Below are positions 46,451 through 55,143 of a stretch of 64,000 nt of DNA, one piece after another. The first letter of the stretch is position 1. Each line of letters begins with the position of its first letter. Under the pieces are notes generated by a model. That model saw only the letters and a list, made by a program, of their open reading frames with translations. It had not been told where the DNA came from and ran no database searches. The DNA is from Gemmatimonadaceae bacterium (GTDB taxonomy: Bacteria; Gemmatimonadota; Gemmatimonadetes; Gemmatimonadales; Gemmatimonadaceae), in NCBI GenBank assembly GCA_020852815.1, contig JADZAN010000009.1, forward strand, positions 1 to 64,000, given 5' to 3'. Made by a program: the position numbers and the translations under genes.

Positions 46451-46819
46451 TCAGCTCACTTCGTCGAGCTCGGCCGGCGCGGCCGCCGGGGGGGCCGCTG
46501 CCGCCGGCTTGGCCGTGTTTCCCTGGCCGCGCCCGCGCCAGCGCGGTTCGGCCGGCGCCGAACGGCGCACGAGGAGGTCCTCGTAATAGGCAACGACGCG
46601 AGGGCGCACCGAAGCCTCGGTATCGCCAGGCTCTGCCCGGAACGGTGCGTACCGGTGACGATCATCGCTCGAGACCGAGAACCACCACCACGGATCGTCG
46701 TGGGCACCACGGAGCCCCTCTCGCACACAGGTGTACGTGCGCTCGTTCTCGATGAACGTGAAGGCGGTCGGCTGCACGACGGCGGTGGCGGCCGAGGCCG
46801 CGGCTTTGGTCTTGGGCAT
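46451..46819 (-). CDS. Hypothetical protein with WWWF motif and Pro/Ala tail
   Basis: A 122-residue protein. The core AFTFIENERTYTCVREGL, then AHDDPWWWFSVSSDDRHRYAPF and RVVAYYEDLLVRR is compact and looks conserved. The C-terminal 35 residues are alanine- and proline-rich. There is no signal peptide or membrane helix. Convergent with the DinB-like gene (11-bp gap). I do not recognise a family. Confidence 0.6.
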   Translation of the reverse strand: MPKTKAAASAATAVVQPTAFTFIENERTYTCVREGLRGAHDDPWWWFSVSSDDRHRYAPFRAEPGDTEASVRPRVVAYYEDLLVRRSAPAEPRWRGRGQGNTAKPAAAAPPAAAPAELDEVS

Positions 46820-46890
46820 ACCGGAAGTTAGTCGGTCCCCGCCCTCCGTGCGGGGGATTTGCCCGCGAAATGCCCGTGGCCACGGCTTTT

Positions 46891-46912
46891 CTTGAATGAA
46901 CGCTCATTCAAG
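46891..46912. promoter_or_regulatory. TetR-type operator-like palindrome
   Basis: CTTGAATGA-ACGC-TCATTCAAG: perfect 9-bp arms in an otherwise GC-rich region. The TGAATGA-N4-TCATTCA form resembles operators of TetR-family regulators such as those for fatty acid genes. No TetR gene is in the window. It lies about 240 bp upstream of the sigma factor and about 70 bp upstream of the minus-strand hypothetical. Confidence 0.5.
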
Positions 46913-47087
46913 GATGCGCTCGCCATGGTCGAGTCCGCCCCCCGCGAGGTGCGTCGCCCCCGCGTTCGCGGGGTGGACCGAGGCGATGCTGGCGACGTTG
47001 CGCCGCTACCTGGCCGACGCCGGGCCCTCTTCGCCCGATGTCGACGACGATGCCGATCGCGTCATTGCCCAATGGTCACGCCCATGA
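46911..47087 (+). CDS. Possible small protein upstream of the sigma factor
   Basis: An open frame from ATG 46911 (MRSPWSSPPPAR) to the TGA ending at 47087 contains FAGWTEAMLATLRRYLADAG and DDDADRVIAQWSRP, which look like an amphipathic helix plus acidic tail rather than random GC-rich sequence. No family is recognised and the start is unclear. It could be a real leader-type gene of the sigma operon or chance. Confidence 0.3.
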   Translation, partial: RMRSPWSSPPPARCVAPAFAGWTEAMLATLRRYLADAGPSSPDVDDDADRVIAQWSRP

Positions 47088-47153
47088 GCCGGGGCGTGCG
47101 CCATGCCCGGGGCGCGGCTGGCGGAGGGGGGCTGCGCTCGGTACGGTTGGGCG

Positions 47154-47714
47154 ATGCCATCACCCGTCACGCCTGACGGCCCTCGCGACGCCACGCCGCT
47201 GCTCGATGCGCTGCTGGAGCGCCTGGGGCAGATGGTGCGCGCGATTGGGGGACGCCACGCGCTGGAGTCTGACGAGATCGACGCCCTGCTGCAGGAGGTG
47301 CGCATCCGCATCTGGCGTGCGCACCCCGAACGTGAGGAGATCGCGCGCCTCCCGACGTCATACGTATACCGGACTGCCATGGCGGCGGCGGTTGACCTGC
47401 TGCGGCAGCGGCGCCGGGCCACGCGCGCCCTCCCGCTCGAGGACGCAGCGGCCACCGCGGCCCCCGCGGCGACTGCCGCTGACGCACGCACCATGGTCGA
47501 CGACCTTGGCGCGGCGATCGCCCGCGCCCTGTCGGGGATGGTCGAGTCGCGACGCGCGGTGGTGCGGTTGCACCTGACGGGATACCCGCGCGACGAGATC
47601 GGTCGCTTGCTGGGATGGGATGACGCTCGCGTGCGCAACCTGCTGTACCGCGGGATGGACGACCTGCGTGAACGACTCACGCAGATGGGATATCGCTGGC
47701 CGGAGGGCGAATGA
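47154..47714 (+). CDS. ECF-type RNA polymerase sigma factor
   Basis: A 186-residue sigma-70-family factor. The sigma2 region contains EIDALLQEVRIRIWRAHP (region 2.2-like) and ARLPTSYVYRTAMAAAVDLLRQRRR (2.3-2.4). After an alanine-rich linker, the sigma4 region has LHLTGYPRDEIGRLLGWDDARVRNLLYRGMDDLRERL (quoted in part), a helix-turn-helix. It directs RNA polymerase to a stress- or envelope-related regulon. The start at 47154 is preferred over 47103; neither has a strong ribosome-binding site. It overlaps the anti-sigma gene (ATGA), the usual arrangement for co-regulated pairs. Confidence 0.87.
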   Translation: MPSPVTPDGPRDATPLLDALLERLGQMVRAIGGRHALESDEIDALLQEVRIRIWRAHPEREEIARLPTSYVYRTAMAAAVDLLRQRRRATRALPLEDAAATAAPAATAADARTMVDDLGAAIARALSGMVESRRAVVRLHLTGYPRDEIGRLLGWDDARVRNLLYRGMDDLRERLTQMGYRWPEGE

Positions 47715-48499
47715 GCGACGACGCGCTGCGCCGCGCCTATCAGGCGCACCTGAAGTCAGCAGGGGGCGATGCACATTCCGCGGCGCAACGCCCCGCGGCG
47801 CGTGCCAGCTGCCCGTTGCCCGAGGTGCTGGCGCAACTGGCAGAGGGCGACGTCGCGACCCAGCTTGGCACGCTCGATCACGTGCTGCAATGCCAGTTTT
47901 GCCTTGCCGAGTTCGAGCTCATGCGCACGCTGGCTCGCGCCGGGCACGATGCGCGGCTCGCGGAAGTGACGGACGTCGGGGTGACGCAGGCGTTGGCGGC
48001 GCGTGACGCGCCACGGCTGCCCGCGCACCGTTCAGCTCGGCCTTCCTCGCGAGCGTGGGGCGGCACCGGCTGGGCGATCGCTGCCACCGTCCTCGTCGCC
48101 GTTGCACTTGGCGGAACGTGGTGGCAACAGCACCTCGGGAATGGCGAGGAGGGTGGGGCGGTGGTGCGTGGGGGCGACGGCGGAACTGTCATCGTGGCGC
48201 CAAGCGGCGCGACGGCCGATGGAACGCTCGTCTTTACCTGGCGGAGCGTGACCGGCGCCGCAGTGGGCGGCATCGAGGCGCGGTATGTCGTCGAGGCGTT
48301 CGACAGCCTCGGCGCGCTGGTGCTGTCGCAGACGGTGCGTGACACGGTGTACGTCCCGACCGCGGCGGAGCGCGAGGCGCTGCGCCGCGCGCAGACGTTC
48401 GACTGGATGGTGCGCGCCGACCGGGGCGACGGCAACGAGCGGCGCTCGCCCCTGGTGCGCGTCCGACTCGGCGCGCCTAACGGGTCGCCGGTTCGGTGA
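47711..48499 (+). CDS. Membrane-anchored zinc-finger anti-sigma factor
   Basis: A 262-residue protein. The cytoplasmic N-terminus has an HxxxCxxC zinc site (H57, C61, C64) as in ZAS anti-sigma domains, one transmembrane helix (about residues 120-138, AIAATVLVAVALGGTWW), and a C-terminal extracytoplasmic domain of about 120 residues (TFTWRSVTGAAVGG-like and YVVEAFDSLGALVLSQTV strands) resembling a fibronectin/Ig fold. It should hold the coupled ECF sigma factor inactive until a signal outside the membrane triggers release. Its stop region overlaps the convergent CHAT gene by 23 bp. Confidence 0.8.
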   Translation: MSDDALRRAYQAHLKSAGGDAHSAAQRPAARASCPLPEVLAQLAEGDVATQLGTLDHVLQCQFCLAEFELMRTLARAGHDARLAEVTDVGVTQALAARDAPRLPAHRSARPSSRAWGGTGWAIAATVLVAVALGGTWWQQHLGNGEEGGAVVRGGDGGTVIVAPSGATADGTLVFTWRSVTGAAVGGIEARYVVEAFDSLGALVLSQTVRDTVYVPTAAEREALRRAQTFDWMVRADRGDGNERRSPLVRVRLGAPNGSPVR

Positions 48500-51400
48500 G
48501 GGTGCCGGTGGGATCGCCGACGAGGGCGAATGCGGCCCACGTGGCCGGCGTCGCGCCGCGCGCCCTGGCGTCGAGGCGCGCCAGCCGCAAGGCGGCGCCA
48601 TATGACACACCGCGCGCCAGCGCGTCGTAGAAGTCGCCCAGCAACGGCGCCAGTTCGCGGTCGCGCACCAGCCACGCCGTGGCGATCACGCGCGGGACCC
48701 CCGCCTCCAGGAATGCGCCAGTGAGGCCGCGCACTCCCTCGCCCGCCAGCACCTCGCCCCCGACGGTGCGACACGCCGAGAGGACGACCAGCGCGGCGCG
48801 CAGGCGCATGGCGCTGATCTCGCCGGCCTCGAGCCATCCATCCTCGCCGCCCGCGGTGGGCGACAGCTGCAACGCGGCCGTGGCGCCCGACCATTCGTCG
48901 ACGACGGCATGCGTGGCGAAATGGAGCACATCAAAGCGCTCCACGTTGGACCGTACGAAGTTTTCGCTCGCCGCCGGGCCGAGCCGAAGCTCCGCCGCGG
49001 GAAAGGCGCGTTGCAGCCGGCGGGCTTCCTCCCGGGCCCCGTGGAGGCGCGGGAGCCCGCCTCGACCCCCGGCGACGGCCGACGCGGCGAACGGATGGTC
49101 CTCGCCGGTCCGCACCCGTGCCTCCAACGGATCGGCGAGCACGAGGACGGCCGGCGCCGCTGCGCTCCCCTCCGCGCGCGCCCCCCTCGCGTGCGCTGCG
49201 CGCTCGCGCAGCGTCGCGAGCACTCCCACCGCGGGGAGCACCGCCGTCTCGAACTGCGCCAGAAAGGGGCGTCCGTCGGGCAAGGCGAGCACGTCGAGCG
49301 GCAGGCGGTGGAGCACACCTTCGGGGACGAAGATCACCCGCGTCGTTCCCGTCAGTTGCAACAGCGGCAACAGCGGGGTCAGGAGGAGGTCGCCAAGCCG
49401 TCGTGAGGCGCCACCGTCGGGGCGCCCGCCCTCCAGTTGCGCGACGAGGCGCCGCACCTGCGGCGCGACGACTTCCCGTGGCGGCAACGCAAAGGCCGCC
49501 AGCGTGTCGCGCGTGAGGACGAAGGCGAGCCCCGGCGCCGTCCCCGCGCCGAGGGTGAGGGTCACGACCGCCGTGCGCGCGTCGGGGACGGCGCGCTGCA
49601 GCGCCTCGACGGTGGGCGGGGCGGACGTCGCCAGCTGCACGTGCGGGCGCGACGTCGCGGGGCGCCCATCGCCGCCCCCGTCGCCGTGCCACGCCGCGGC
49701 CAGCAGGAGCCGCTCTTGCAGCTCGCGGGCCCGGCGCCGCTCGGAGAGGAGGAAGGCGGTTTCCATCTCGCCGAGGGCCACCAGGCGCGCCTCCAGCATC
49801 GCCTGATACCAGCGGTCCCCCTCCACCGCCTGCACGGTGAGCAGCCGCAACGCGCTGTCGGCAAGCGAGGCCCGCCAACTGTCAAACGACTCGGCCGCCG
49901 CCCTCGCCACGCGCGCCGCCGCGCGACCATCGCCCTCCAGCGCGTACGTCAGCGCCAGCTGCCCCTCGATCACGTGGCGAAAGTGATGCTGGCTGGGGTG
50001 CAACTGCTCGGCCGCGCGCTGCAGGAGTGGGCGGGCGGCCACCACGTCGCCCTGTCGGAGCGCCAGTTCGCCGCGTGTGGCGGCCAGCGACAGGCGCCAC
50101 CCATCCAGGGCGTACCTGTCGATGAGGGCCGCCTCGTCGCGGAGGAGCTTGCCCGCTTCGCCCGGCGCGCCGGCGCGCATGGCGCTGGCGCGCTGCGAGG
50201 CAACCACCGCCAGCTGCAACTGCGGGTCGCCGAGTCGCCCGGCGAGGGAGTGGGCCATCGCCAGCGCGGCGCGACTGGCGCTCGTGTCGCCGCGCGCGAG
50301 GGCGTGACGCGCCTGCAGCCGGGCCACCTCCACGCGCCCCGCCGGATCGTCGAGGCGGCGCATCAGCGAGTCGGCGCGCGGGAGCCAGGTCGCCGTGGCG
50401 GTTGCGTCGCGGAAGGCGAGGGCCACCGCCGCCCGATTGAGCGCCGTCCAGGCAGCGGCATCGGCCACCTGGGCGCGTATGGCCAGCTCCCACGCCTCGC
50501 GCTGGTAGCGTTGCGCCATGGTGAAGTGGCCCAGCGATGCGCTGTAGAAGCCCGCCCACTGGCTCGACGCGGCGAGGCCGGCCAGGTCGAGCGTGGCGCG
50601 TTGTGCCGCCATCGCGGGAATGAGGTGCGCGGCGACCGAGTCGCTCAAGCCGCTGCGAGCGAACTCGGTGGCCAGCGTGAAGCGGCACGATGCCGCCAGG
50701 CGCAACAAGCCGGCATTGGCCGCGCGCGCCATCCCCTCGCGCGCCGCACGACGGGCCTCCTCGCGTGCCCCCCGCCGGGAATGGACGGCCGCCCACCGGC
50801 AGCGTGCCGCCACCTGCAACGTGGGATCGTCCCCCCAACGCAGCGCGTCGCCGCGTTCGAGGATCGGCGTGGCGGCGAGGGGACCCTGGCGACGGAGGAT
50901 GGCCCCCGCGCGCAGGAGCATGGCGTCGAGTGCGGTGAGTGTGTCGTTCTCGGCGAGCGCAGTGCGCTCCAGCATGACGAGGGATTCGATCGCCTCGTCG
51001 TGCCGGCCGCGCTGCGCGGCCAGCGCCGCCGTCCAGTATTGCGCCTGACGGGTGACGTCGTCGGCGGCAGGGGGGAGTGCCGGCGCCACGCGCGTACCCG
51101 CCGCGCGCGCCGGTTGCCCTAAGCGGGCGAAGCCGGCGGTGGCCGCCGCGACGGCATACGACAGGCGGTCGTGGGTGGCCACCGCATAGCGAGCGCGCCG
51201 GTCGGCGGCGTCGCGCGCCAGGCGCTTGCGCCACGGCGCCCCCCATTCGGCGAGGCGGCCGCGCTCGGCAGCGCCCTGTGCCGCCGCGGCGATGCCGCGC
51301 GCGGACGAGTCGCCGCGCACTGCTTGCGGGAGCTGCGCCACGGCGGCGTGCGGCGCATGCGCGGCGCCTTGGGCCGCCGCGAGCAGCAGTGCGCCTGACG

Positions 51401-51524
51401 ACGCGGCCAGGCGCATGATCGCCAACGCGGCTTTCCGCCAACGCTGGACAGCGAACAGCGCAGGCGGCGCTCCTTGGAGGGCGGCTACGCGGCGCGAGGG
51501 CGTGGAACGCTCAGCCGACGGCAT
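48477..51524 (-). CDS. TPR-CHAT protein, caspase-like protease, probably exported
   Basis: A 1015-residue protein. A signal-like hydrophobic stretch (LAASSGALLLAAAQGAAHA) lies near the N-terminus. A long alpha-solenoid of TPR-like helices (about residues 90-620, for example QYWTAALAAQRGRHDEAIESL) follows, then a CHAT domain in the last 330 residues. Catalytic residues are intact: His in VLHFATHAVVDEW (H872) and Cys in VVLSACRTVGGEV (C918). Family CHAT proteins are separase/caspase-like cysteine peptidases. It is convergent with the sigma/anti-sigma pair, and its TAG stop lies in the word GCCTAACG shared with the anti-sigma gene end. Start may instead be ATG 51416, just before the signal core. 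Confidence 0.85.
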   Translation of the reverse strand: MPSAERSTPSRRVAALQGAPPALFAVQRWRKAALAIMRLAASSGALLLAAAQGAAHAPHAAVAQLPQAVRGDSSARGIAAAAQGAAERGRLAEWGAPWRKRLARDAADRRARYAVATHDRLSYAVAAATAGFARLGQPARAAGTRVAPALPPAADDVTRQAQYWTAALAAQRGRHDEAIESLVMLERTALAENDTLTALDAMLLRAGAILRRQGPLAATPILERGDALRWGDDPTLQVAARCRWAAVHSRRGAREEARRAAREGMARAANAGLLRLAASCRFTLATEFARSGLSDSVAAHLIPAMAAQRATLDLAGLAASSQWAGFYSASLGHFTMAQRYQREAWELAIRAQVADAAAWTALNRAAVALAFRDATATATWLPRADSLMRRLDDPAGRVEVARLQARHALARGDTSASRAALAMAHSLAGRLGDPQLQLAVVASQRASAMRAGAPGEAGKLLRDEAALIDRYALDGWRLSLAATRGELALRQGDVVAARPLLQRAAEQLHPSQHHFRHVIEGQLALTYALEGDGRAAARVARAAAESFDSWRASLADSALRLLTVQAVEGDRWYQAMLEARLVALGEMETAFLLSERRRARELQERLLLAAAWHGDGGGDGRPATSRPHVQLATSAPPTVEALQRAVPDARTAVVTLTLGAGTAPGLAFVLTRDTLAAFALPPREVVAPQVRRLVAQLEGGRPDGGASRRLGDLLLTPLLPLLQLTGTTRVIFVPEGVLHRLPLDVLALPDGRPFLAQFETAVLPAVGVLATLRERAAHARGARAEGSAAAPAVLVLADPLEARVRTGEDHPFAASAVAGGRGGLPRLHGAREEARRLQRAFPAAELRLGPAASENFVRSNVERFDVLHFATHAVVDEWSGATAALQLSPTAGGEDGWLEAGEISAMRLRAALVVLSACRTVGGEVLAGEGVRGLTGAFLEAGVPRVIATAWLVRDRELAPLLGDFYDALARGVSYGAALRLARLDARARGATPATWAAFALVGDPTGTLTEPATR

Positions 51525-51689
51525 GGCGCCAAGGTACCGGTTGCCGGCGTCAACAGGCCAGAGCGACCCAGGCGCCCGTGGCTTCATCGGAGACGGTGCA
51601 CGCCACCGTGATACGATCGGCGCCATGCGAGCGTGCAACGACGTGGGGCGACCATCGCCCGATTCGTATCCGCTACCCGGAGCCAACTC

Positions 51690-53648
51690 ATGCGGTGGAC
51701 CGTTCGCCTCGTGCGCGTCGCGGTGCTCGCGATCATGGTCGCGAACCTGTCGTCCTGCTTCCTCTTCTGCGCCCTGTCGCCAACCGCGTGCAAGGCACCG
51801 CCGTCGAGTCAGCAGATCGTGGCGCCGGTGGTCTCGGTAAGCGCGTCGCCGGCGCGGCTGGACGTCGTGGCCGGCTCGACGACGACCTCGTCGCTGTCCA
51901 TCTCACTCGCGGGCGGGCCCTCGGGTGCCGCGCTCTCCCTGGGCGGCTCCCTTCCCGGTGGCGTCACTGCCTCGTTTGTCCCAGCGACGGTGAGCGGGAA
52001 CGGGACGTCCATGTTGACGCTGTCGGCGGCCGCCAACGCCGCCCCTGGACTCTTCCAGTTCGATGTGGTGGCGACGAGCACCGGGAGCGCCACGGCCACT
52101 GTGGGAACCACCCCCATCACGGGCGAAGTGCTCCGACCGTTCCGCCTGTCCGGCGTGAACGCGCAGACCATGACCGTGGGGACGTCACGCGACATCGCCG
52201 TCGCGGTGGCGCGCGCCACCGGCTTCACGGCGCCCGTCACGTTTTCCGTCGATCCCGCCACCCTTCCGGCGGGGAGCACTGTCACCTTCGCCCCGTCGTC
52301 CACGACCTCGAACACGTCCACGCTATCGCTCGCTGTCCCCCAGGGAGCATCCACCGGGCAGTACCTCGTGCGGCTCTACGCCACGTCTGGCGGCTCGGCC
52401 GACACCGCGCGCTTCCTCCTCGACGTGCAAGCCGCTCCAGTGCCACCCGACTTCAGCATCGTCGCCACGCCGGCGCAGGTGGACGTTGCACCTGGCGGCT
52501 CAGGGCTCGTGACGCTGTCCATCACGGTCTCGCAGGTCGGGCTGGGGCCGGTGGTCCTGTCGGCGGGCGCACTCCCGCCGGGCACGACGGCGTCGTTCGC
52601 CCCGCCGAGCCTAACGAGTGGGAACGCGCAGCTCACGATCGCCACGTCGGCCGCCACCCCGGACGGTCTCTATCCGATCGTCGTGACGGGGACGGCGGGG
52701 AGCCTCGTCAGGCAGGTCACCGTCACGCTGGGCGTCACGACGCCGGCTGACTTCCAGCTCGCCGTCACCCCGGCATCGGTGACCGTCCCGGCCGGCGGGA
52801 ACGCGCAGGCGGCGGTGGCCATCCAGCGCACGGGAAATCCGGGCGCCGTCACCCTCGACGTGACCGGGCTCCCCGCCGGCGTCACCGCCACGGCGAATCC
52901 CGCCAGCGTTACCGGGAGCACCAGCACCCTCACCGTTGCGGTGGGGGCGAGCGTTGCAGCCGGGAGCTATCCGCTCGTGGTGCGTGGGGTGGCAGGGTCC
53001 ATCACCCGTACCGTGCCGCTGACGCTCGTGGTCCCCGCGGCTCCGGCGCCGCTGGTCACGATCCAGCTGCTGACGCCTAACGTCTCCATCGCCCCGGGGG
53101 GGACGGCGCTCGTCCCCGTGCGGCTCACGCGCACGGGATCGGCCATCGGGCGGTTCCTCGAGCTGCGCGTCGCCGGCCTCCCCGCAGGCGGCAACGCGTG
53201 GGTCACGCCGAGCTTCACGTACGGCGACACCGCCACGCTGCACGTGATCGGTGGAGTTCCGGGGAACTATCCCGTCGCCGTCACCGTGGTCCTTGGCGCG
53301 GTGCTCCCGACGGCGACCGCCTCGGTCACCGTGACGTCGTCCAGCACGCCCGACTTCTCCCTCATCCCATCGCCGACGACGCTCACCATCACGCGGGGTA
53401 TGTTCACGCCGATCTCGCTCTCCATCATCCGCAGCAACGGCTTTGCCGGCGCGGTGACGCTCGCCGGGATCCCCGACGACGTGAGCAACTACGCCGTGAA
53501 CTTCACGCCGGCGCAAACCACCGGCAACAGCGCGGCGATTGCCGTGTACGCCAGCCCCCTCGTCACGGCGGGGGTCCACATTCTCCGGCTGCGGGGGACG
53601 AGCGGATCGATCACGCGCACGGTCTCGGTGACACTGCTGGTGCAGTAG
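51690..53648 (+). CDS. Surface lipoprotein of tandem Ig-like repeats
   Basis: A 652-residue lipoprotein: signal peptide RWTVRLVRVAVLAIMVANL with lipobox LSSC, then about six repeats of roughly 95 residues. Each repeat has the pattern PDFSxxxTPxxVxVxxGGS, LxxGxTASFAP, TLTIxxSAxxGxYPLVVxGxxGSxTRxVxVTLxV. Such putative Ig/cadherin-like modules serve adhesion or act as stalks. No catalytic domain is seen. The ATG at 51690 is chosen for the signal peptide; an in-frame ATG at 51633 is less likely. It is divergent from the CHAT gene (166 bp apart) and could share its regulation. Confidence 0.78.
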   Translation: MRWTVRLVRVAVLAIMVANLSSCFLFCALSPTACKAPPSSQQIVAPVVSVSASPARLDVVAGSTTTSSLSISLAGGPSGAALSLGGSLPGGVTASFVPATVSGNGTSMLTLSAAANAAPGLFQFDVVATSTGSATATVGTTPITGEVLRPFRLSGVNAQTMTVGTSRDIAVAVARATGFTAPVTFSVDPATLPAGSTVTFAPSSTTSNTSTLSLAVPQGASTGQYLVRLYATSGGSADTARFLLDVQAAPVPPDFSIVATPAQVDVAPGGSGLVTLSITVSQVGLGPVVLSAGALPPGTTASFAPPSLTSGNAQLTIATSAATPDGLYPIVVTGTAGSLVRQVTVTLGVTTPADFQLAVTPASVTVPAGGNAQAAVAIQRTGNPGAVTLDVTGLPAGVTATANPASVTGSTSTLTVAVGASVAAGSYPLVVRGVAGSITRTVPLTLVVPAAPAPLVTIQLLTPNVSIAPGGTALVPVRLTRTGSAIGRFLELRVAGLPAGGNAWVTPSFTYGDTATLHVIGGVPGNYPVAVTVVLGAVLPTATASVTVTSSSTPDFSLIPSPTTLTITRGMFTPISLSIIRSNGFAGAVTLAGIPDDVSNYAVNFTPAQTTGNSAAIAVYASPLVTAGVHILRLRGTSGSITRTVSVTLLVQ

Positions 53649-53829
53649 ACGCCGGCGCGCGGGAGCTTTCCGGGGTGACGGCACCGCGGCGCGGGGACAT
53701 ACTGGGGCGGCTCGCGGCGCGCCGCAGACCGGGAGTGGGCGTTGCGCCATCCCGGCTGCGCAGCGCGCCACGCCGCTCCCCCGTACAAGAGGCACACCGC
53801 GCCTCCGTCGCCTCATCCCCCTCCCCGCC

Positions 53830-55143
53830 ATGCGCCACGTCCCCCCTCGTCAGGCCACCCTCCGCCGCCCGACGCGCGTCGTCGCATCGTACGCCGCGTC
53901 ATCTGTCGCAACGTGCGTCGCATTGCTCATCGCCTCGTTGGCGTTCGCCGCGCCGGTGCCCGCGCAGGCCACCGCTCAAGCAAACGCGCGAGCCACCGCG
54001 CAGGCCGCCGCTCCCGACTCTGCCGACCCGGTCGCCTTTCTCGTGAGCCAGCTCGACCTCGAGCGCTACAAGGCAACCATCAAGGGGCTCACCGCGTTCG
54101 GCGACCGTCGCCAGGGGACGGCGCGCAACCGGGCCGCGCTCGATTGGATCGAGGCGCAGCTCAGGAGCTACGGCTGCACGCCAGAGCGCCTGACCTACGA
54201 CTTCACCCCGCCGCCGCCCGTGCAGCGCCCCGCCGGTGCCGGTCCCGGGCAGCGACCGGCGACGCCGCCACGCGCTGGACAGGGCGGCTCGCGCTTGCGC
54301 GGCAACCGCGCCCGCACCGGCGTCAACAACGACTCGCTCGCCCAGCCTGACGCGCGACTGCGCGAGCTCAACGCCGAGGCGAGCGTGCCCGGGCAGAGAC
54401 AAAACGTGTATTGCACCAAGGTGGGAACGGTGCATCCCGACGAGATGTACATCGTCGGCGCGCACATGGACGGCATTGGCTGGGGCGAGGCCGCCAACGA
54501 TGACGGCTCCGGGACGGCGCTGGTGATGGAACTGGCGCGCGTCTTTTCCATGCCCGGCGTCACGACGGAGCGCACGATCCGCTTTGCGCTGTGGAACAAC
54601 GAGGAGACGGGACTCAACGGCGCGCGCGCCTACATCGCGCAGCGGCAGGCGCTGCAGGGGAAGGAAGAGCCGGCCGGGTCGGGGAAGTACCCGGAGCCCA
54701 GGTGGCTCGGCATGATCCAGCACGACATGATGCTGTGGGACCACGGCATGCCGCGCGCGGACGGGACGCTCAACCCCGAGCAACGCCCCGAAGCCGACGT
54801 GAACGTCGAGTTCCAGTCCAACTCCAAAATGGCGGAGCAGTCGGCCAGGCTCGCCTGGTTCTTCCACGCGGCCAACGAGAAGTACGCCACCGATTACCCC
54901 GCCACGGTGGGTCCGCACATGACGAACACCGACTCCGGACCATTCCAGGACCTCATTGCGTCCATCTCGCTGCGCGAGAACGAGCGCGGCGCGCACACCG
55001 GCGCGGGATGGAACCCGCACTGGCACCAGCCTACCGATCGCTACGCGACGTTCAGCGACAAGGACTTTCGGCTCGGGCTGAACGCCGCGCAGACGACGTT
55101 GGGCGCGCTGGGGCTGCTGGCGGGGGCACGGGTCGCGCGTTAG
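53830..55143 (+). CDS. M28-family zinc aminopeptidase, exported
   Basis: A 437-residue peptidase. The signal peptide (VATCVALLIASLAFAAPVPAQ) is followed by an alanine-rich linker and the M28 core. Zinc ligands and catalytic residues appear in YIVGAHMDGIG (His, Asp), EAANDDGSG (bridging Asp), LWNNEETGLNG (Glu pair), MIQHDMMLWD and HWHQPTDRY (C-terminal His). A proline/arginine-rich insertion (about residues 130-165) interrupts the N-terminal part. It cleaves N-terminal residues from peptides in the periplasm. The stop lies in a CGTTAGGC word. A bidirectional hairpin separates it from the convergent patatin gene. Confidence 0.88.
   Translation: MRHVPPRQATLRRPTRVVASYAASSVATCVALLIASLAFAAPVPAQATAQANARATAQAAAPDSADPVAFLVSQLDLERYKATIKGLTAFGDRRQGTARNRAALDWIEAQLRSYGCTPERLTYDFTPPPPVQRPAGAGPGQRPATPPRAGQGGSRLRGNRARTGVNNDSLAQPDARLRELNAEASVPGQRQNVYCTKVGTVHPDEMYIVGAHMDGIGWGEAANDDGSGTALVMELARVFSMPGVTTERTIRFALWNNEETGLNGARAYIAQRQALQGKEEPAGSGKYPEPRWLGMIQHDMMLWDHGMPRADGTLNPEQRPEADVNVEFQSNSKMAEQSARLAWFFHAANEKYATDYPATVGPHMTNTDSGPFQDLIASISLRENERGAHTGAGWNPHWHQPTDRYATFSDKDFRLGLNAAQTTLGALGLLAGARVAR

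Follow-up and report, generated by a model that had tools for sequence, protein, structure and literature searches.

An ECF sigma factor, a membrane anti-sigma factor and a probably exported TPR-CHAT protein that together resemble a split DdvA-type signalling module

In the window, a 64,000-nucleotide stretch of a Gemmatimonadaceae contig, we examined three adjacent genes that encode an ECF sigma factor, a membrane anti-sigma factor and a TPR-CHAT protein that is probably exported. The sigma gene (P0001, 186 amino acids; 47154..47714, plus strand) runs into that of the anti-sigma factor (P0002, 262 amino acids; 47711..48499, plus strand), whose start lies 4 bp inside the sigma stop, so that the two genes overlap by 4 bp. 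The CHAT gene (P0003, 1015 amino acids; 48477..51524, minus strand) converges on this pair and is not co-transcribed with it. Its 3' end overlaps that of the anti-sigma gene by 23 bp (48477..48499), and overlapping anti-sigma and CHAT 3' ends recur in 6 of 12 convergent loci. Coordinates, Pfam matches and motifs confirm the arrangement described in an earlier note on this DNA, namely overlapping sigma and anti-sigma genes with a convergent TPR-CHAT gene whose His872 and Cys918 are intact.

The sigma factor consists of regions 2 and 4 only, as ECF sigma factors do, with Sigma70_r2 and r4_2 above the Pfam cut-offs and TIGR02937 (sigma70-ECF) above its own. Six nucleotides upstream of its start codon lies a -10-like box of the leaderless-promoter type, TACGGT (47142..47147, plus strand), and a second such box, TACCTT (51531..51536, minus strand), stands at the same distance from the CHAT start codon. 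Across these genomes TANNNT boxes peak 5-7 nt 5' of start codons, with a gap of 6 in 23 of 940 genes compared to a background of about 4; the enrichment of exactly this spacing supports the starts at 47154 and 51524. Both genes appear to have leaderless promoters of the housekeeping type, and the TANNNT spacing suggests that leaderless transcripts are numerous in this phylum. An ECF promoter dyad common to the upstream regions of sigma and CHAT was sought, and no candidate rose above shuffled sequences.

P0002 has no Pfam family match, and its architecture was read from a structure model, in which a helical zinc domain is followed by one transmembrane helix (residues 119-141; 48065..48133, plus strand) and a confidently predicted beta domain (residues 170-252, mostly with pLDDT above 90). 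The zinc motif reads HVLQCQFC (residues 57-64; 47879..47902, plus strand). The beta domain matches fibronectin-III domains, and the predicted Fn3-like outer domain as a whole spans about residues 165-252 (48203..48466, plus strand). The zinc-finger anti-sigma factor of the earlier note stands, with its supposed Ig-like domain now recognized as fibronectin-III-like. The type of outer domain varies among the anti-sigma factors of related loci, being Fn3 or, in L049 and L056, TPR-like. In three convergent-clade anti-sigma factors (L041, L044 and L045) the zinc ligands (HxxxCxxC) are lost and the transmembrane helix and Fn3-like domain are kept.

The CHAT domain of P0003 occupies residues 707-1004 (48513..49406, minus strand; PF12770, 181 bits) within a protein whose structure model has a pLDDT of 85.6 and a pTM of 0.83. 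It carries the His-Cys dyad that characterizes clan CD CHAT peptidases, with the predicted catalytic His872 in HFATHA (48909..48911, minus strand) and Cys918 in LSACRT (48771..48773, minus strand). The pair is retained in 88 of 111 aligned CHATs and in every trio-linked convergent member. Over the 19 sequences of the window's clade, which are 26-38% identical to P0003, both residues are invariant columns.

A sister clade of sigma-linked CHATs (f2, including L052, L060, L063, L066, L075, L078, L081, L087, L095 and others) has Tyr in place of the His (HLATYGVL), with the Cys kept, and its basal members have Phe, Ala or Ser at the His position. We regard it as a candidate pseudo-protease clade. 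The order of sigma, anti-sigma and CHAT genes is unchanged in this clade, which suggests that the usual dyad is not always needed; in this clade at least, the protein would have to act without it.

P0003 begins with a predicted export signal or signal anchor (about residues 31-65; 51330..51434, minus strand), in which a hydrophobic segment (residues 33-51, mean KD 1.75) follows a long basic N-region and is only moderate in strength; the structure model has a helix at residues 23-52. Most convergent-clade CHATs have an N-terminal signal peptide, several have a C-terminal transmembrane helix followed by a basic tail, and the Myxococcus copies show the same features. Given these features of the homologues, we consider it very probable that the CHAT family is extracytoplasmic and lies outside the inner membrane. 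For the window's own CHAT, export is probable, and less clear-cut than in its relatives. The export claimed in the earlier note is therefore clear for many relatives and only probable for P0003, whereas the cytoplasmic location that it had set against its own proposal is refuted for the family by the sequence evidence and is unlikely for the window protein.

To ask how general the association is, flanks of about 110 Gemmatimonadota CHAT genes were annotated with home-made profiles; a single-protein scan of the genome contigs with P0003 had returned no relatives. Within the phylum, 79 of 249 good genomes and 52 of 106 genera carry CHAT genes. Among the 104 CHAT genes of at least 700 amino acids, 46 have an ECF sigma gene within 2 kb, where a density of 6.2 sigma genes per Mb, taken from ten genomes, predicts about 2.7. 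This 17-fold excess has a nominal P of about 1e-44, which overstates the significance since the loci are related, but an excess of this size spread over many genera cannot be put down to chance. For about half of the CHAT genes in the phylum, no sigma gene was detected nearby. The window's genome has a second CHAT gene (L003:3908-7057, on G000:C17), with no sigma gene detected within four genes.

Every one of the 15 linked members of the window's clade in the CHAT tree (support 0.944) has the convergent arrangement, whereas the other clades mostly have sigma, anti-sigma and CHAT in that order as operons, so the linkage has outlasted a rearrangement of the genes. Searches in 40 relatives recovered convergent anti-sigma/CHAT pairs in two genomes (G018 and G023). 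Beyond the phylum, the trio is found in Myxococcota (Myxococcus, Corallococcus), Acidobacteriota and Aminicenantes, in both layouts and including convergent overlapping copies. Over 30 trios, protein distances correlate between sigma and CHAT (Spearman 0.75), sigma and anti-sigma (0.70) and anti-sigma and CHAT (0.68), with none of 2000 permutations as high, although shared species history inflates these values. Within 12 convergent trios the correlation is weaker (0.48-0.53; 0 to 7 of 2000 permutations). The earlier note had made its proposal depend on sigma, anti-sigma and CHAT genes lying together in relatives; their co-localization is strong, conserved and crosses phyla, and the possibility that CHAT is not linked to sigma genes is refuted. 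Taken together, these patterns make us highly confident that ECF sigma factor, membrane anti-sigma factor and extracytoplasmic TPR-CHAT protein constitute one conserved unit.

In the window, the trio is part of a variable cassette of 7.2 kb (46772..54014) that consists of sigma, anti-sigma, CHAT and an exported repeat protein. In a genome of the same genus (L328, G002:C3:214000-224500), the syntenic site lacks the cassette, and the flanking genes stand in the same order with 0.67 kb between them. Presence of the trio across phyla and its absence from a species of the same genus indicate that the module is widespread but patchy. The exported repeat protein, which has Ig-like sequence, is encoded divergently from CHAT (51690..53648, plus strand) and was not seen beside the other convergent-clade CHAT genes that we looked at. 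No conserved cargo or neighbour gene beyond the trio was found in the convergent clade, where the scanned neighbours differ from locus to locus.

The closest known counterpart of the trio appears to be the DdvS-DdvA pair of Myxococcus xanthus. DdvS is an ECF sigma factor that becomes active once the anti-sigma factor DdvA is inactivated, and the signal was unknown as of 2015 (PMC4374960). The top Foldseek match of the P0003 model is DdvA (8rw5/8rot; E 1.5e-13), ahead of separase and of Csx29, the protease of the type III-E CRISPR system Craspase. On VIA re-alignment Csx29 scores above DdvA (Z 21.1 over 567 residues for DdvA), so the fold ranking alone is not decisive and the sequence profiles must decide. 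P0003 as a single sequence found no solved relative, and the profiles did. The CHAT profile matches 8rot residues 824-984 first (E 5e-11), with Csx29 next at about 1e-4. The anti-sigma profile also matches 8rot first, at residues 7-91 (E 5e-5), and then 3hug, which we take to be RslA-like, an Fn3-like protein, 8rlz ('Antisigma factor DdvA') and ChrR. Judged by these profiles, P0002 and P0003 match the N- and C-terminal ends of one known anti-sigma factor, which is in effect a natural fusion test of function.

Like DdvS-DdvA, the window encodes an ECF sigma factor under a transmembrane anti-sigma factor, with a homologous zinc domain and transmembrane helix and a homologous TPR-CHAT part. Unlike DdvA, which is one chain, the window has two genes in opposite orientation, and its anti-sigma factor has an Fn3-like outer domain of its own. 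The features of a DdvA-type system that recur here are thus the zinc domain with a transmembrane helix, the outer TPR-CHAT part and the cognate ECF sigma factor, whereas a single polypeptide is seen only in a natural fusion, L060. From these comparisons, the window trio is best called a split, two-gene DdvA-type ECF signalling module.

In the fusion (L060:6220-10215, minus strand, genome G027), a single frame of 1331 amino acids has zinc motifs, a transmembrane helix (residues 128-146), an Fn3-like domain and TPR-CHAT. Its relatives at 63-67% identity have separate genes, and their CHAT has a signal peptide. The fused protein has, in place of that signal peptide, a polar, proline-rich linker behind the transmembrane helix and Fn3 domain of the anti-sigma part. 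This replacement argues against a sequencing error, and it places CHAT outside the membrane in both the fused and the split arrangement. L060 is the only clear fusion that was seen; a second one, in G258, has an in-frame TAG.

What might such a module do? We consider the best explanation, at a probability of roughly 55%, to be a split DdvA-type module in which CHAT controls the anti-sigma factor from outside. The zinc domain would hold the sigma factor at the membrane, the TPR solenoid of CHAT would read an envelope or outside signal, and CHAT would then act on the outer part of the anti-sigma factor such that sigma is released. In this view CHAT is the external, signal-sensing half of an inhibitor made of two proteins. 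That CHAT regulates sigma via the anti-sigma factor, by whatever means, we think fairly likely, and the trio probably lets gene expression respond to events outside the cell. How CHAT would act may differ among clades. In the window's clade, with its intact His and Cys, the likeliest action of CHAT would be that of a site-1 protease that cuts the outer region of the anti-sigma factor, after which ordinary intramembrane and cytoplasmic proteolysis would follow; we rate this route somewhat short of even odds. In the His-to-Tyr clade, CHAT would act by binding only.

Alternatively, CHAT may be a non-proteolytic sensor or co-inhibitor, that is, the detached outer domain of a DdvA-like anti-sigma factor. 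Docked on the Fn3 domain, it would keep the holding state or alter the anti-sigma factor on binding a ligand, and any cut would be made by general site-1 and site-2 proteases. Arguing for this, one-chain forms exist in DdvA and in the L060 fusion, and the His-to-Tyr sister clade keeps the whole gene order. The variation in outer domain type, from Fn3 to TPR-like, is likewise expected of an assembly or sensing surface. Counter to this, the invariance of His872 and Cys918 over the window's clade is hard to explain without catalysis, and we consider a purely non-proteolytic role unlikely, at perhaps one chance in a few.

Apart from the pure sensor role, the chief rival left is one in which CHAT is not the regulator but the output: sigma would induce CHAT as an exported protease for the processing of surface proteins. 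ECF sigma factors often have co-regulated neighbours. Operons of the sister family run on into Big_5 and RCC1/PD40 surface-type proteins, with Big_5 in 7 of 7 scanned loci (at the fusion locus a gene for a beta-helix protein comes first and the next one encodes Big_5), and the window's cassette includes the exported repeat protein. Against this, DdvA and the fusion place CHAT inside the inhibitor, the CHAT start is preceded by a housekeeping-type TANNNT box with no ECF motif in common with the sigma upstream region, and the convergent clade yielded no conserved surface-protein partner. We regard an output role as improbable, more so than a sensor role.

The earlier note had drawn a parallel with Craspase, and one could suppose that the trio is a stand-alone relative of that circuit in phage defence. 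In Craspase, gRAMP and target RNA activate Csx29, which then cleaves the inhibitor Csx30; the sigma factor is CASP-sigma (PMC10028731). The same protein classes do occur in both systems, namely a TPR-CHAT protease, a sigma inhibitor and an ECF sigma factor (PMC10028731), and Csx29 chains are among the structural matches of P0003. In contrast to Craspase, the window has no gRAMP, its inhibitor is a membrane protein, and its CHAT appears to lie outside the membrane instead of in the cytoplasm with gRAMP. P0003 has no match to the Csx29 model NF041237 at E<=0.01, PADLOC returned nothing for the window proteins, no CRISPR family is present among the scanned neighbour genes at the locus, and DdvA is closer by sequence profile. 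The parallel therefore holds as an analogy only, and kinship with Craspase in phage defence is very improbable. Of the stand-alone, protease-controlled sigma switch that the earlier note envisaged as possible, a dedicated sigma/anti-sigma/CHAT module is well supported, and protease action on the anti-sigma factor is plausible.

The statement that CRISPR genes are lacking is correct for the scanned neighbours and has to be restricted to them. Elsewhere in the genome, on a different contig (G000:C28:56501-61085), type III CRISPR-like RAMP genes are present that are unrelated to the trio locus. RAMP matches are confined to contig C28, in three separate frames and with no fused gRAMP/Cas7-11, whereas the CHAT genes are on C9 and C17.

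That the three genes are mere neighbours without a common function, joined by chance or horizontal transfer, would suit the patchy 7.2-kb block that is absent from the same-genus genome, but it is effectively refuted by a 17-fold linkage that persists through changes of orientation and across phyla, by the correlated trees and by the gene fusion.

Other systems have parts of the DdvA-type arrangement that we favour. The site-1 proteases of RseA- and RsiW-type systems are PDZ serine proteases or others, and not a genetically linked caspase-like protein. The membrane anti-sigma factor with an outer domain, and the stepwise cleavage in the proposed model, nevertheless resemble RseA/DegS/RseP and RsiW-type proteolysis (PMC10028731). 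In the ECF54 group of Actinobacteria, CHAT, carboxypeptidase and subtilase proteins belong to the conserved gene neighbourhood of an ECF sigma factor and proteolytic control has been proposed (PMC8999054, section 3.3); CHAT in a sigma context is shared with our trio, but ECF54 is described without an anti-sigma factor (PMC8999054). In EACC2-caspase systems, a caspase-superfamily protein is encoded near an ECF sigma factor, and transcription triggered by the peptidase was proposed (PMC8195603). By their description these systems have an EACC2 domain, variable C-termini and a DUF1822 TPR protein, compared to the zinc/transmembrane/Fn3 anti-sigma factor of the window, and DUF1822 is absent from the window neighbours scanned with Pfam. 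A literature search outside the ECF classification papers found no description of a split membrane anti-sigma factor with an exported CHAT.

Few substrates are known for CHAT proteins, a widespread group of caspase relatives. Their link to a membrane anti-sigma factor, together with the solved one-chain DdvA, provides a concrete candidate substrate and a readout, sigma activity, makes transcription control by caspase-like proteases outside CRISPR testable, and gives the Craspase circuit a possible evolutionary background outside CRISPR. As a tentative generalization, ECF anti-sigma factors in several phyla may have exported CHATs, genetically linked and dedicated to them, as site-1 proteases or outer control subunits, in split and fused form, with one clade a pseudo-enzyme. 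If this is true, caspase-family proteolysis would be a widespread outside-to-inside transcription switch that is independent of CRISPR.

If CHAT does cut the anti-sigma factor, Arg153 of P0002, in the juxtamembrane outer linker (48167..48169, plus strand), is a speculative candidate site. Clan CD proteases often cut after Arg, and this residue is invariant in 25 of 25 aligned anti-sigma factors. We rejected it as a P1 site, given that Arg followed by a small residue is also present in 9 of 13 control anti-sigma factors, which makes the controls non-discriminating, and that a secreted lipoprotein at L044 also has an Arg ahead of its copy of the Fn3-like domain; the residue may instead be structural. 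That probable lipoprotein (L044:3022-3444, minus strand) is a stand-alone protein with the Fn3-like domain of the anti-sigma factor, encoded beside a CHAT gene. In four loci of Myxococcus, Corallococcus and Myxococcaceae (L181, L183, L187 and L188), a small, probably exported protein of ~165 amino acids is encoded between anti-sigma and CHAT.

Close relatives of P0001 (E<=1e-28) number only five genes in 40 related genomes, with the next match at 1e-9. A convergent CHAT gene accompanies four of them, and the fifth (L043, in G018) has the anti-sigma gene with no CHAT nearby. The same genome holds, far from L043, an orphan CHAT of the window's clade without a sigma gene (L042), and the L042 CHAT and the L043 sigma/anti-sigma pair are perhaps separated partners.
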